Positions 9,984-23,903 of a DNA stretch of 39,500 nt are shown piece by piece. Both the position numbers and the translations under genes were made by a program. Within the stretch, counting starts at the first letter, position 1. Every line of letters starts with the position of its first letter. The notes beneath the pieces are model-generated. The model did no database searches. It worked only from the letters and a program-made list of their open reading frames with translations, and had not been told where the DNA came from. This stretch comes from Aequorivita todarodis (GTDB lineage: Bacteria > Bacteroidota > Bacteroidia > Flavobacteriales > Flavobacteriaceae), in contig NZ_JAQQTG010000041.1 of NCBI RefSeq assembly GCF_028561335.1, positions 1-39,500 on the forward strand, read 5' to 3'.

Positions 9984-10188
9984 TAGTATTTGCGATCAAA
10001 TCGTATTGCAATAAGTTGTAAAAGAAAGCATTCTTTTTCAGCTCGATAAATAGACCCCATAACACTTCAATCTTCCGAAACTGAAGTTTATGCTCCTCTC
10101 CATTCCATAGAATATAAGTACACTAAAATGGAGTAAGCCCAAAATCCAAATGTAAAAGAGTAGGCATTAAACTTAAAAAATAGTAATC
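9984..10188. other. Intergenic leader with hairpin before the Trp/Cys-rich gene
   Basis: An 11-bp stem with one bulge (CATAA-c-ACTTCA at 10058-10069 with TGAAGTTTATG at 10082-10092) encloses a 12-base loop. It is not followed by a T-tract, so it is not an obvious terminator and may be a 5' leader structure. Confidence 0.3.
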
Positions 10189-12587: not shown

Positions 12588-12592
12588 GAAAG

Positions 12593-13003
12593 TGGAGCCG
12601 GAGGGATTCGAACCCTCGTCCAAACGCGCAATTATAATGCTTTCTACATGCTTAGTTTTCATTTAGGTTTTCGAGAGATTGCCGGTCGAAAACTACCAAC
12701 GCACTCCTTATCTTTACTTGCGCCGATAGGTATCGGCATTCACGATGCCATCAAAGCACTAGCATCGCTAGGTTTACTTTTACGAAGCCGCTATATCGAA
12801 CGCCGTAAACCAAGGCCTTCGAGCGACTTCCTGCTTGCCCACCTTGTGGGCCGAGGCACATCCTACTATGATTCGGATTATGCAGCTAGGGCGTAGTTAT
12901 TCTCGCCGTTTAAAAAGTGTGAAACCTGAGATTTACGAGCTGTGTCCCAGCGCTCGGCATGCTTACAATACAATTAGACCCGCTGTCAAAACCAGTCGGC
13001 CCC
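12593..13003 (-). ncRNA. ssrA: tmRNA (transfer-messenger RNA, trans-translation)
   Basis: On the minus strand the 5' end GGGGCC near 13003 pairs with the 3' GGCTCC next to the acceptor end at 12593. The 3' portion reads GGACGAGGGTTCGAATCCC, the T-arm of the tRNA-like domain; CCA is not encoded. The tag frame (12907-12878) reads GGC GAG AAT AAC TAC GCC CTA GCT GCA TAA, giving GENNYALAA, the form typical of Bacteroidota with the conserved ALAA degron. The roughly 410-nt length is normal. tmRNA with SmpB rescues stalled ribosomes and marks the nascent chain for proteolysis. The 5' boundary is by pairing only; precursor transcripts probably start upstream. Confidence 0.96.
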
Positions 13004-21431: not shown

Positions 21432-22040
21432 TTAGTTTTTTTGCTCTTTTAGGTACATAATGCTTCCGTAAATAACGTGGAAAAGCCCAAAGCCCAAGAG
21501 CCAAAACCACAGGCCGTAACCGGGCAGTGCGGCGCAGATGAGCCCAATGGTTATTTCGGCGTAGCCTAAATATTTTACGTTGCCAATGGTATATTTTGAA
21601 GCGTTTACGAGTGCAAGCCCGTAAAAGATTAACATCAGGGAAGCTGTGAGCCCGTAATGCTGGCTATTTAATTTTATGATGATGTAAATTCCACCGGTAA
21701 CCAAGGGAATCAAAAAGTTGACCAGCAAACGGCGGGTGGTGGTGTCCCAAATTTTTTCGTTGTTTCTTTTCGCCCGTCGGGTAGTCAGAAGGTAGGCGGT
21801 AATTATACTGAGCACCAATACAGAGGCCAAGAGGATTAGTAACAATTTGAAATTCCAACTGTGGAGTGTAAGATATTCTCCGGGTTTTGGAAAGAGATAT
21901 ACATACGCAATCGTAGCTCCAACTATGGCATAAATTCCCGCAAAAATACCTGATAACCCGCTGAGCGAGATAAACCGGGAGGAGCGGTCCATTAAATTCC
22001 TTATCTCGCTGATGTCTTTTAAATAATCTTTTTCACTCAT
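21432..22040 (-). CDS. Integral membrane protein, partner of the winged-helix regulator
   Basis: The 202-residue protein has a short soluble N-terminus (MSEKDYLKDISEIRNLMDRSS) followed by six hydrophobic segments (about 28-50, 66-85, 104-123, 128-146, 152-170, 172-195). I do not recognise a named family, but such proteins are commonly found immediately before the winged-helix regulator and CreD in this phylum. The stop and the regulator's GTG are two bases apart, so translation is coupled. An operator palindrome lies 9 bases upstream of the ATG. It may sense envelope state and modulate the regulator; that is inference. Confidence 0.8.
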   Translation of the reverse strand: MSEKDYLKDISEIRNLMDRSSRFISLSGLSGIFAGIYAIVGATIAYVYLFPKPGEYLTLHSWNFKLLLILLASVLVLSIITAYLLTTRRAKRNNEKIWDTTTRRLLVNFLIPLVTGGIYIIIKLNSQHYGLTASLMLIFYGLALVNASKYTIGNVKYLGYAEITIGLICAALPGYGLWFWLLGFGLFHVIYGSIMYLKEQKN

Positions 22041-22065: not shown

Positions 22066-22140
22066 AAATATAAAAATAGTTATCCTGCAAATTAATTATT
22101 CAAATAATTTTGAATCGTTAGAACCAACAAACACTGGAAA

Positions 22141-22209
22141 ACAGGAAAAACCCTGTAAAAAAATGGGGGATTCCCCTCTTGACCCGTATTGTTTTATGCC
22201 GCATCTTTG
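22141..22209 (+). promoter_or_regulatory. sRNA unit A control region: two operators 22 bp apart and promoter
   Basis: Palindrome 1 is ACAGGAAAAACCCTGT (22141-22156) and palindrome 2 is GGGGGATTCCCC (22165-22176); their centres are 22 bp apart, two helical turns. A -33 TTG lies at 22179-22181, followed after 20 bases by CATCTTTG (22202-22209), close to the -7 consensus. Placement just upstream of -33 suits an activator that contacts RNA polymerase. Confidence 0.6.
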
Positions 22210-22212
22210 TAC

Positions 22213-22281
22213 CACTATACATTAATTGGGGAGTTAATAAATAGTGATTTGGGAAGGTTGTCCATAACGGGCAACCTTTTT
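22213..22281 (+). ncRNA. Candidate small RNA A (about 68 nt)
   Basis: The unit predicts a stem of CACTAT/ATAGTG (22213-22218 with 22241-22246) and ATTAA/TTAAT around a TTGGGGAG loop (22226-22233), then an intrinsic terminator AAGGTTG/CAACCTT with a T-tract (22254-22281). Two paralogous units follow. The stem bases differ between units A and C while pairing is kept and the loop is invariant, which is evidence for a conserved RNA. There is no significant reading frame in it. The transcription start is estimated from the -7 element. Confidence 0.6.
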
Positions 22282-22326
22282 CATTTTAGGGAACAATTTC
22301 AGGTTTTTTACCAAAAAACAAAAAAA

Positions 22327-22393
22327 GGGGGAAATCCCCCATGAAAAACAGGGTTTTTCCTCTTGACTGGCTTTATAGTTCTTCGCATCTTTA
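22327..22393 (+). promoter_or_regulatory. sRNA unit B control region: operators in swapped order and promoter
   Basis: GGGGGAAATCCCCC (22327-22340) is here the distal site and ACAGGGTTTTTCCTCT (22348-22363) the proximal one, the reverse of units A and C, yet the centre spacing is again 22 bp. -33 TTG is at 22363-22365 and CATCTTTA at 22386-22393, with a 20-base spacer. The swap with conserved spacing suggests that one protein recognises both site types. Confidence 0.6.
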
Positions 22394-22397
22394 CAAC

Positions 22398-22466
22398 AGC
22401 AAATTAATTGGGGAGTTAATCGTGCCATAATTGATAAAAGCTGTTCCATTTTGGAACGGCTTTTTT
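22398..22466 (+). ncRNA. Candidate small RNA B (about 69 nt)
   Basis: ATTAA/TTAAT (22403-22407 with 22416-22420) presents the loop TTGGGGAG (22408-22415). An intrinsic terminator AAGCTGTTCC/GGAACGGCTT with a T-tract ends the unit (22438-22466). The sequence between loop and terminator is unlike that of units A and C. Confidence 0.6.
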
Positions 22467-22486
22467 CTTTTGCAATCTATTGAAAA

Positions 22487-22556
22487 ACAGGAAAAACCCT
22501 GTAAAAAATTGGGGGATTTCCCTCTTGATTGGTATTGGGTTTTTGCCCGATATTTG
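22487..22556 (+). promoter_or_regulatory. sRNA unit C control region: two operators 22 bp apart and promoter
   Basis: ACAGGAAAAACCCTGT (22487-22502) is identical to that of unit A, and GGGGGATTTCCC (22511-22522) follows at 22 bp centre spacing. -33 TTG is at 22525-22527 and the -7-like GATATTTG at 22549-22556. Confidence 0.6.
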
Positions 22557-22558
22557 AA

Positions 22559-22630
22559 TACTTATTTGATTGGGGAGTTTTATAAGTAGAGAGGTTAATG
22601 GCTGCTCCCTAAAAAGGAGCAGCTTTTTTT
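22559..22630 (+). ncRNA. Candidate small RNA C (about 70 nt)
   Basis: The stem TACTTAT/ATAAGTA (22559-22565 with 22582-22588) differs from that of unit A while pairing is kept, and it again presents TTGGGGAG (22570-22577). The terminator GCTGCTCC/GGAGCAGC followed by eight T (22601-22630) is very strong. Confidence 0.6.
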
Positions 22631-22676
22631 ATTGAAAGTTAGCAGTTCATATTTTTATAAATTTTGTTTTTAGCCA

Positions 22677-22718
22677 AAGCGCCCTGCCAACAACTGATGG
22701 CAGGGCGCTTTATTTTTT
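22677..22718 (+). terminator. Intrinsic terminator before the DUF1801 gene
   Basis: AAGCGCCCTGCCA pairs perfectly with TGGCAGGGCGCTT around an 8-base loop and is followed by TATTTTTTT. It lies only 24 bases before the DUF1801 start and follows no gene directly, so it may be a second stop for sRNA C or a leader attenuator. TATCTTCA just before the ATG could be that gene's -7 element. Confidence 0.6.
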
Positions 22719-22734
22719 TAGTATCTTCACATTT

Positions 22735-23094
22735 ATGAATCCAGCGGCGTTATATATCTTGGGGAAACCAGAGCCATACAGGTCCATGCTCCTCCATCTA
22801 CAGGCTACTGTGGAAACTGTGATTCCTGAAACAGCGTTGATGTTTAAATGGAAGCTGCCCTTCTTTTATATTGAAAACAATCCGTTTTGTTATCTCAATT
22901 TTTCTAAAAACTACGTAGATATTGTATTTTGGCACGGTGCCCATTTAACCAAACATACGGAAGTTTTGGTTTCTGAAGGAAGAAAGCATATGAAGTCGCT
23001 TCGCTACAAAACACTTGAAGAAATAAATCAGCAAATATTACAGGAGGTTCTTTTGGAAGCCTACACTATAAGGGATAGAAAGTATTATAGATGA
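22735..23094 (+). CDS. DUF1801 domain-containing protein
   Basis: The 119-residue protein fits DUF1801 (YdhG-like): EPYRSMLLHLQATVETVIPE at 13-32, MFKWKLPFFYIENNPFCYLNF at 36-56 and DIVFWHGAHL at 62-71. The family has an SCP2-like small alpha/beta fold and no established function. The last 10 bases overlap the end of kdsA on the opposite strand. Confidence 0.85.
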   Translation: MNPAALYILGKPEPYRSMLLHLQATVETVIPETALMFKWKLPFFYIENNPFCYLNFSKNYVDIVFWHGAHLTKHTEVLVSEGRKHMKSLRYKTLEEINQQILQEVLLEAYTIRDRKYYR

Positions 23095-23903
23095 TTAATG
23101 GTTTTTCGAATTGCCACAAGATCCGTCAACAATTTTTCGAGCAGGTTTAAATTCAGCATATTGGCGCCATCGCTTTTTGCGTTTGCAGGGTCAAAATGGG
23201 TTTCTATAAAAATTCCATCGGCGCCGGTAGCTATTCCCGCCCTCGCAATTGTTGAAATCATTTCGGGCCTACCGCCCGTAACGCCAGCGCTTTGGTTGGG
23301 CTGTTGCAAACTGTGGGTTACGTCCAAAACCACGGGGGCATATTGCTTCATTGTAGGAATTCCCCGAAAATCCACAATCATATCCTGATAACCGAACATG
23401 GTTCCACGATCTGTAATCAGTACTTGTTCGTTGTTGCAATCGGTTACCTTGGTCACGGCGTGCTTCATGCTTTCGGGGCTCATAAATTGGCCTTTTTTCA
23501 GGTTTACCACCTTTCCCGTTTCAGCGGCCGCTACTACCAAATCGGTTTGTCGCACCAAGAATGCCGGGATTTGCAGCACATCTACATATTCGGCGGCCAT
23601 TGTGGCATCGCTTACTTCGTGAATATCGGTAACGGTGGGAACGTCAAAAGTTTCGGAAACTTTGCGGAGAATTTTCAATGCCTTTTCATCACCAATGCCG
23701 GTGAAACTATCTATTCGGCTTCGGTTTGCTTTTTTGAAACTTCCTTTGAATATATAAGGTATCTTTAGGTTGTCGGTAATTTTCACAATCTTTTCAGCAA
23801 TCTGCATCGCCATTTCCTCGCCTTCAATGGCGCAAGGCCCTGCGAGTAGGAAAAAATTGTTGGAAGTAGTGTGTTTTATTTTTGGGATTTTGTTCAGTTG
23901 CAT
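23085..23903 (-). CDS. kdsA: 3-deoxy-8-phosphooctulonate (Kdo-8-P) synthase
   Basis: The 272-residue protein is full length for KdsA and condenses phosphoenolpyruvate with arabinose-5-phosphate in the Kdo pathway for LPS. Motifs: LLAGPCAIEGEE near residue 19, FKGSFKKANRSR near 53, VLQIPAFLVRQTDL near 109, DFRGIPTMKQYAPVVLDVTHSLQQP near 180. Cys24 in GPC marks the metal-dependent class; the metal-independent E. coli enzyme has Asn at this place. The gene is monocistronic and convergent with the DUF1801 gene. Confidence 0.96.
   Translation of the reverse strand: MQLNKIPKIKHTTSNNFFLLAGPCAIEGEEMAMQIAEKIVKITDNLKIPYIFKGSFKKANRSRIDSFTGIGDEKALKILRKVSETFDVPTVTDIHEVSDATMAAEYVDVLQIPAFLVRQTDLVVAAAETGKVVNLKKGQFMSPESMKHAVTKVTDCNNEQVLITDRGTMFGYQDMIVDFRGIPTMKQYAPVVLDVTHSLQQPNQSAGVTGGRPEMISTIARAGIATGADGIFIETHFDPANAKSDGANMLNLNLLEKLLTDLVAIRKTINHL

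Follow-up and report, generated by a model that had tools for sequence, protein, structure and literature searches.

What do the three tandem units found in the genome of Aequorivita todarodis (G000) encode, what might switch them on, and how might their products act? The units occupy positions 22139-22643 of the window (the whole stretch of DNA that was analyzed, 39,500 nt), and each combines a pair of palindromes, spaced 22 bp, with a promoter, a hairpin, and a terminator. The first-pass annotation had reported three consecutive units with start-to-start distances of about 184 and 162 bp, palindrome pairs exactly 22 bp apart, and a -33 TTG, a -7-like element, and a strong terminator in each unit; these observations are real. 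The distances are confirmed by reading, by repeats, and by alignment (operator starts lie 184 and 162 bp apart and loops 182 and 162 bp apart), and the palindrome spacing is confirmed by reading, with centers at 22148.5/22170.5 in unit A, 22333.5/22355.5 in unit B, and 22494.5/22516.5 in unit C. The -33 TTG, the -7-like element, a TTGGGGAG core, and the terminator are present in units A, B, and C. The palindromes are imperfect, and in unit B the two palindrome types stand in reverse order relative to A and C, a feature absent from the earlier annotation. The elements of the array are:

22141..22176, + strand: unit A operator, ACAGGAAAAACCCTGT (22141-22156) and GGGGGATTCCCC (22165-22176); PWM 52.3, profile 40.9 bits (site in both training sets)
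22179..22209, + strand: unit A promoter, by reading, TTG at 22179-22181 and ATCTTTG at 22203-22209, with similar elements across units
22213..22282, + strand: predicted sRNA A, ~70 nt, outer stem CACTAT/ATAGTG, inner AU stem, GGGG loop at 22228-22231, terminator at ~22251-22281 (start and end inferred); covariance model 64.4 bits (copy in training set)
22327..22361, + strand: unit B operator, GGGGGAAATCCCCC (22327-22340) and AGGGTTTTTCCT (22350-22361); PWM 51.6, profile 36.5 bits
22363..22393, + strand: unit B promoter, by reading, TTG at 22363-22365 and ATCTTTA at 22387-22393
22396..22468, + strand: predicted sRNA B, ~70 nt, GGGG loop at 22410-22413, weak outer stem GCA/UGC, terminator; covariance model 74.9 bits (copy in training set)
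22487..22522, + strand: unit C operator, ACAGGAAAAACCCTGT (22487-22502) and GGGGGATTTCCC (22511-22522); PWM 53.8, profile 43.2 bits
22525..22556, + strand: unit C promoter, by reading, TTG at 22525-22527 and TATTTG at 22551-22556
22560..22632, + strand: predicted sRNA C, ~70 nt, outer stem TACTTAT/ATAAGTA, GGGG loop at 22572-22575, terminator; covariance model 55.8 bits (copy in training set)

What hardly varies among the predicted RNAs is an AU-rich stem capped by a GGGG tetraloop, enclosed by outer stems that vary in sequence yet pair. Folding z-scores are -4.85 for A, -3.83 for B, and -2.37 for C. The earlier statement that the stems differ but pair stands for units A and C, which fold as the hairpin described; it fits unit B less well, since the outer stem there (GCA/UGC) is weak and the minimum-energy fold differs from the hairpin. 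Similarly, the TTGGGGAG core that had been called an invariant 8-nt loop is present in all three units, but it really consists of two pairs flanking GGGG. Among 65 non-identical units (the window's three included), apical inner pairs 1-4 form in all 65 and the loop is GGGG in 64, the exception being GGGA in L189; the regular expression behind this set excluded GAGG copies, of which L188 and L191 contain one each, and unit counts of this kind overstate the evidence because copies from kin are near-duplicates, neither independent nor down-weighted. Four locus/strand combinations were removed by hand before these hairpin counts (65 units) and the operator counts given below (59 units). Both sides of the inner pairs have changed in G287 (TATAAACT GGGG AGTTTATA) and in G118. 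The outer flanks pair with their own partner at -5.36 kcal/mol, versus -3.87 +/- 0.22 kcal/mol with swapped partners, and none of 200 swaps was as good; we think that this test is conservative, because the flanks of relatives pair even when swapped. In L188, L189, L200, L201, L203, L206, and L117, some copies have an extended 5' leader that may form additional hairpins.

A BLAST search of the region against 149 genomes of the family gave matches in 23, several with tandem copies. A covariance model built from 19 copies and applied to the family at E<=0.001 matched 37 of 299 genomes; when all 37 were read, 29 had a genuine GGGG hairpin and 8 (G008, G053, G088, G148, G168, G205, G215, and G238) proved to be chance terminators without one. 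Only two of 296 genomes matched in a sample of the phylum, the genome of A. todarodis itself and G470, a chance match that was rejected because the GGGG hairpin is absent. Relatives contain one to four copies (four in L187 and L190), and the named carriers include, at least, Aequorivita, Ulvibacter, Altibacter, Marixanthomonas, Planktosalinus, Cochleicola, Aureitalea, Aureisphaera, and Pukyongia. The exact pattern occurs in at least 117 stretches (genome contigs), and the covariance model was run on 23 of these and then on the other 94. Sixteen of the 94 listed stretches match at E<0.01, all of them named as Flavobacteriaceae, Flavobacteriales, Bacteroidetes, or genera therein; the other exact-pattern stretches among the matches listed, mostly from other phyla, are chance by the covariance model. 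Also set aside were weak covariance matches in L147 and L149 (E ~0.002), which lie inside a gene or lack an operator. Two viral contig matches, in which the operator is absent, and the TTTGGGGAGTT matches in the A. todarodis genome look like chance.

This conservation of loop, stems, and terminators among relatives, together with pairing that survives sequence change, supports the original description of tandem, paralogous, terminator-ended predicted RNAs with one shared operator. The AT-rich intergenic setting and the changed loops in L188, L189, and L191 could be taken to indicate chance repeats or a non-functional repeat element, an explanation that in our judgement is refuted by the conservation, namely by a conserved neighborhood, by the surviving pairing, and by an operator kept across many genera. 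The units are regarded as a genuine multicopy family of predicted sRNAs that is not in Rfam 15. No Rfam 15 family reached its gathering score in the array region, where all 54 matches of a permissive scan fell below it. The only two gathering-score matches in the window, both outside the array, are a tmRNA (tag GENNYALAA, 12590-13003, - strand) and a DUF805b RNA (10128-10166, + strand). A search of the literature gave no description of this sRNA family, the relevant finds being Rfp18 and FopS (below), and the portions available to us of an Aequorivita paper (PMC10663628) contain nothing on the sRNA array.

The neighborhood was counted over 27 loci with a unit, using genes within 6 kb (some loci being short), and a few loci have different neighbors. 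In the window it consists of:

21432..22040, - strand: upstream neighbor, 202 aa, with weak DUF6338 similarity below the cut-off; a relative near 20 of 27 loci
22676-22711: between unit C and the DUF1801 gene, one more inverted repeat, almost perfect, with a T-rich stretch after it
22735..23094, + strand: downstream neighbor, DUF1801 protein, 119 aa; a relative in 15 of 27 loci
23085..23903, - strand: downstream neighbor, KdsA (3-deoxy-8-phosphooctulonate synthase); a relative in 24 of 27 loci

Because the last terminator ends only ~10-15 nt ahead of the DUF1801 start codon in L201, L206, and L113, hairpin and terminator might be thought to form a duplicated leader or attenuator in the 5' region of that gene. 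This is very unlikely, given that DUF1801 accompanies only 15 of the 27 loci and that in L196, L197, and L178, which belong to the same genus as the window, KdsA adjoins the array and DUF1801 is absent (in either count, short loci could miss one). In addition, every unit has both a promoter and a terminator, and the window adds the terminator-like inverted repeat between unit C and DUF1801.

A 46-bp operator, recognized by a gapless matrix (score >8), is present upstream of 56 of 59 units, the matrix having been trained on the same sites. Beyond the array, an operator profile built from 35 sites scores 32.7 bits at a site before a curlin-repeat gene of the A. todarodis genome and 26.3 bits at one before an operon of four genes. 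Its weaker matches in this genome include one near an AraC-type gene (21.2 bits) and one near an M19 dipeptidase gene (14.9 bits, E 0.1), among others. The operon encodes a 116-aa protein (no Pfam or NCBIfam match; structure model with pLDDT 83.5), a 234-aa protein that is hydrophobic by reading, a HisKA_3 histidine kinase, and a Response_reg+GerE regulator; Response_reg+GerE and HisKA_3+HATPase_c were found in 5 of 5 operons scanned. The operator lies within 400 bp of the operon's first gene in 24 of 30 loci located through the small protein, at a score >5, a cut-off picked after the scores had been seen, and the other 6 lack it at this threshold; the loci are outside the training set, near relatives included. 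The highest background score, 3.3, comes from downstream DNA of the same 30 loci, which is mostly coding and thus an easy background. Among 299 genomes, the sRNA and an ortholog of the operon's small protein (E<=1e-25) are found together in 26, the sRNA only in 3, the operon only in 3, and neither in 267, a co-occurrence (Fisher p 7e-31, kinship ignored) that could stem from common descent in one clade. The hairpin is present and the ortholog absent at this cut-off in G089, where the operator score is -19.7, and in G206 and G287, where reading gives no clear palindrome pair. An operator before the curlin-repeat gene was seen only in G000 and G254, which share a genus; in G000 the gene is followed downstream by CsgE- and CsgF-like similarity below curated cut-offs.

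Thus, the role, given earlier as unknown, is narrowed, since the operator is shared with a two-component operon and, in two genomes, with a curli gene. We read the system as a probable autoregulated two-component regulon with multicopy sRNA outputs, and we infer that its response regulator binds the palindromes. Alternatively, another regulator could bind them, in which case the two-component operon would be just one target among several. The weaker sites before the AraC-type and M19 dipeptidase genes are consistent with this, as is G116, where two strong operators stand in tandem upstream of an RNA of another kind and the small protein has no match. The most recurrent protein-coding target, however, is an operon whose products include a response regulator that binds DNA; autoregulation is widespread, and NarL/FixJ-type proteins are suited to palindromes. 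Control by another regulator is consequently judged improbable, if far from negligible, and the linked response regulator is retained as the candidate activator.

Profile matches in a scan of 14 genomes were strong in 12 sRNA carriers and in G116 (best E 4e-11 to 7e-7), and none was strong in G200 (best E 0.145). Among 20 genomes of the family chosen for having neither the RNA nor the operon, 5 match at E<=0.01 and one of them, G119, at E<1e-3. Since the operators of G116 occur with neither a small-protein match nor a match to the covariance model, the operator is not tied to the operon or to the GGGG RNA, and this genome suggests that other types of predicted RNA share it. The different RNA of G116 (L236, 1500-1795) has a terminator and a GGGGG stretch. 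Operator-like sites are also seen in L316 (from G119, a genome in which the sRNA model finds nothing) and, in L030, L272, L276, L278, and L279, before genes for a protein of ~160-175 aa (no Pfam match in the two examined); in L278 a Cro/C1-type HTH gene lies near such a site. L201 contains three consecutive palindromes. The two-component operon is adjoined in L282 by a T4 gp19-like tail tube gene, and in L273 by the genes for a peptidoglycan-binding protein and a weakly patatin-like large protein.

The reading that we favor, with a probability of roughly 55%, is that of an array of trans-acting sRNAs under one activator, the linked NarL/FixJ-type regulator, whose loops pair with mRNAs. Three paralogous sRNAs of ~70 nt would be switched on jointly when the activator binds to a pair of GG-N6-CC-type palindromes, set 22 bp apart, immediately 5' of every promoter. 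The activator would most likely be the NarL/FixJ-type response regulator of the autoregulated operon, in which genes for a ~120-aa protein and a hydrophobic protein of ~235 aa are followed by those for the histidine kinase and the regulator itself; in A. todarodis an operator lies ahead of the curli genes as well. Having several copies would produce a burst of RNA that is large and depends on dose, as other multicopy sRNA systems do. The GGGG tetraloop of each RNA would then be displayed on a weak AU stem, and its pairing with an (A)CUCCCCAA-type stretch close to the start of a few mRNAs for envelope or secreted proteins would alter their translation.

Loop pairing is our first choice for how the RNA acts, held with modest confidence. 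Copies of the loop complement, AACTCCCCAA, number 12 in the A. todarodis genome (3 in the array), which is no enrichment over its mirror (13), and 11 in G254 (2 in the array; mirror 3). Three of 9 non-self sites in A. todarodis and 1 of 9 in G254 lie <=12 nt from a predicted start. Those in A. todarodis belong to an M23 peptidase, an M28 peptidase, and LpxD (~0.15 expected, post hoc), with two of the three start codons being TTG or GTG by prediction; the LpxD site is present in both genomes, for which conservation of the protein may account. In 741 sampled genes, TCCCCAA is found 10 times at starts, versus a mean of 2.9 for permuted 7-mers (0 of 102 permutations as high), and equally often (10) at -200..-100. 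CTCCCCA is found 5 times at starts versus 1, 3, and 3 elsewhere, which are tiny numbers, and the mirrored control AACCCCT is also raised at starts (9 versus 4, 4, and 4). The start-codon enrichment thus fails the positional controls and the mirror control, so loop pairing is a proposal rather than a result. Also counting against pairing, the seed would sit inside a stem.

The layout of the array had earlier been likened to that of the Qrr sRNAs of Vibrio, which reportedly consist of several paralogous sRNAs under one signal-controlled activator with sites upstream of each copy. Qrr sRNAs need sigma-54, LuxO (NtrC type), and Hfq. The array, too, has several paralogous copies behind a common activator site (3 in the window, 1-4 in relatives), but only this layout resembles Qrr. 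By reading of aligned promoters, its promoter is of a -33 TTG/-7 TAnnTTTG-like kind rather than a -24/-12 sigma-54 promoter, its likely activator is of the NarL/FixJ type with a GerE domain rather than an NtrC-type LuxO, no Rfam match reached the gathering score, and Hfq (PF17209) was found in 0 of 20 genomes, A. todarodis included (5 of 14 control genomes positive). Thus, of the earlier interpretation, the tandem predicted RNAs with their common operators stand and kinship with Qrr is not supported.

Other bacterial sRNAs are controlled by regulators of the type proposed here: RsmY and RsmZ are activated by GacS/GacA, and CsrB is under UvrY, a NarL/FixJ-type response regulator. Rsm/Csr RNAs bear many GGA loops. 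The array is similar to GacA-RsmY/RsmZ and UvrY-CsrB in having multiple sRNAs, a NarL/FixJ-type candidate regulator (with the Response_reg and GerE domains on which the comparison with the GacA/UvrY class is based), upstream palindromes, and a G-rich hairpin loop. Its hairpins could be decoys that titrate an RNA-binding protein, in a convergent counterpart of Gac/Rsm in which a NarL/FixJ-type regulator drives sponge RNAs. The hairpin sequence is indeed kept beyond the needs of pairing while the outer stems drift, the copies are multiple and in tandem, and the linked regulator has weak similarity to the model for UvrY/SirA/GacA, at 99 bits against a cut-off of 280, although other NarL-type models score as high or higher (MctR 111, NarL 106.5). 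Unlike the Csr/Rsm systems, however, each short RNA has a single GGGG hairpin rather than several GGA loops, and a search for CsrA/RsmA (PF02599) gave no match in 20 genomes, with 3 of 14 controls positive. For Hfq and for CsrA alike, the 20 genomes comprise 12 of the genus and 8 of other families of the order. RRM_1 (PF00076) gave no match at E<=1e-3 in the A. todarodis genome, the single one searched (Bacteroides ihuae control positive). Since CsrA was not found in the 20 genomes, nor RRM in A. todarodis, the known sponge partners are unsupported, and we regard a decoy as unlikely, while giving it some weight. Of the earlier proposal of co-regulated RNAs that act in trans or as sponges through a G-rich loop, co-regulation is supported by the shared operator; neither start-specific enrichment nor a known partner was found for the action of the loop.

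More broadly, and tentatively, the system may represent a two-component regulon of marine Flavobacteriaceae in which tandem GGGG-tetraloop RNAs are dosage-tuned outputs beside curli, acting either as decoys or by chaperone-free loop pairing. If true, this regulon would parallel Gac/Rsm in bacteria whose genomes yielded neither CsrA nor Hfq, as in the genus considered here. To our knowledge, RNA-level control in Bacteroidota beyond the gut genera is little explored. The RNA family, the operator, the candidate kinase/regulator pair, and the curli gene behind the same operator would provide a concrete, testable system, which could connect attachment or matrix production with RNA-level control.

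Within the phylum, FopS of Bacteroides thetaiotaomicron is described, in the part of the report available to us, as having 14 copies, an open 5' seed followed by a terminator, and the RRM-1 protein RbpB as partner (PMC11697453). So far as this account extends, the array is like FopS in phylum, in being multicopy, in RNA length (~65-70 nt), and in the intrinsic terminator (PMC11697453), and unlike it in that the conserved segment lies in a predicted 5' hairpin, the copies form a tandem array with paired operators, and an RRM_1 partner was not found in the A. todarodis genome. Overall, the array would work as other multicopy sRNA systems driven by an activator do, and it departs from Qrr, Csr/Rsm, and FopS in defining features that were tested. 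Rfp18 of Flavobacterium psychrophilum, a member of the same family, Flavobacteriaceae, is a structured sRNA that, according to the portion of its description at hand, affects metalloprotease mRNAs and pairs through its third stem-loop (PMC9723704). The likeness to the array, drawn from that description only, lies in the structured sRNA and the shared family. The GGGG RNA is present in two Flavobacterium sp. draft genomes (L096 and L175), and kinship with Rfp18 is therefore possible.
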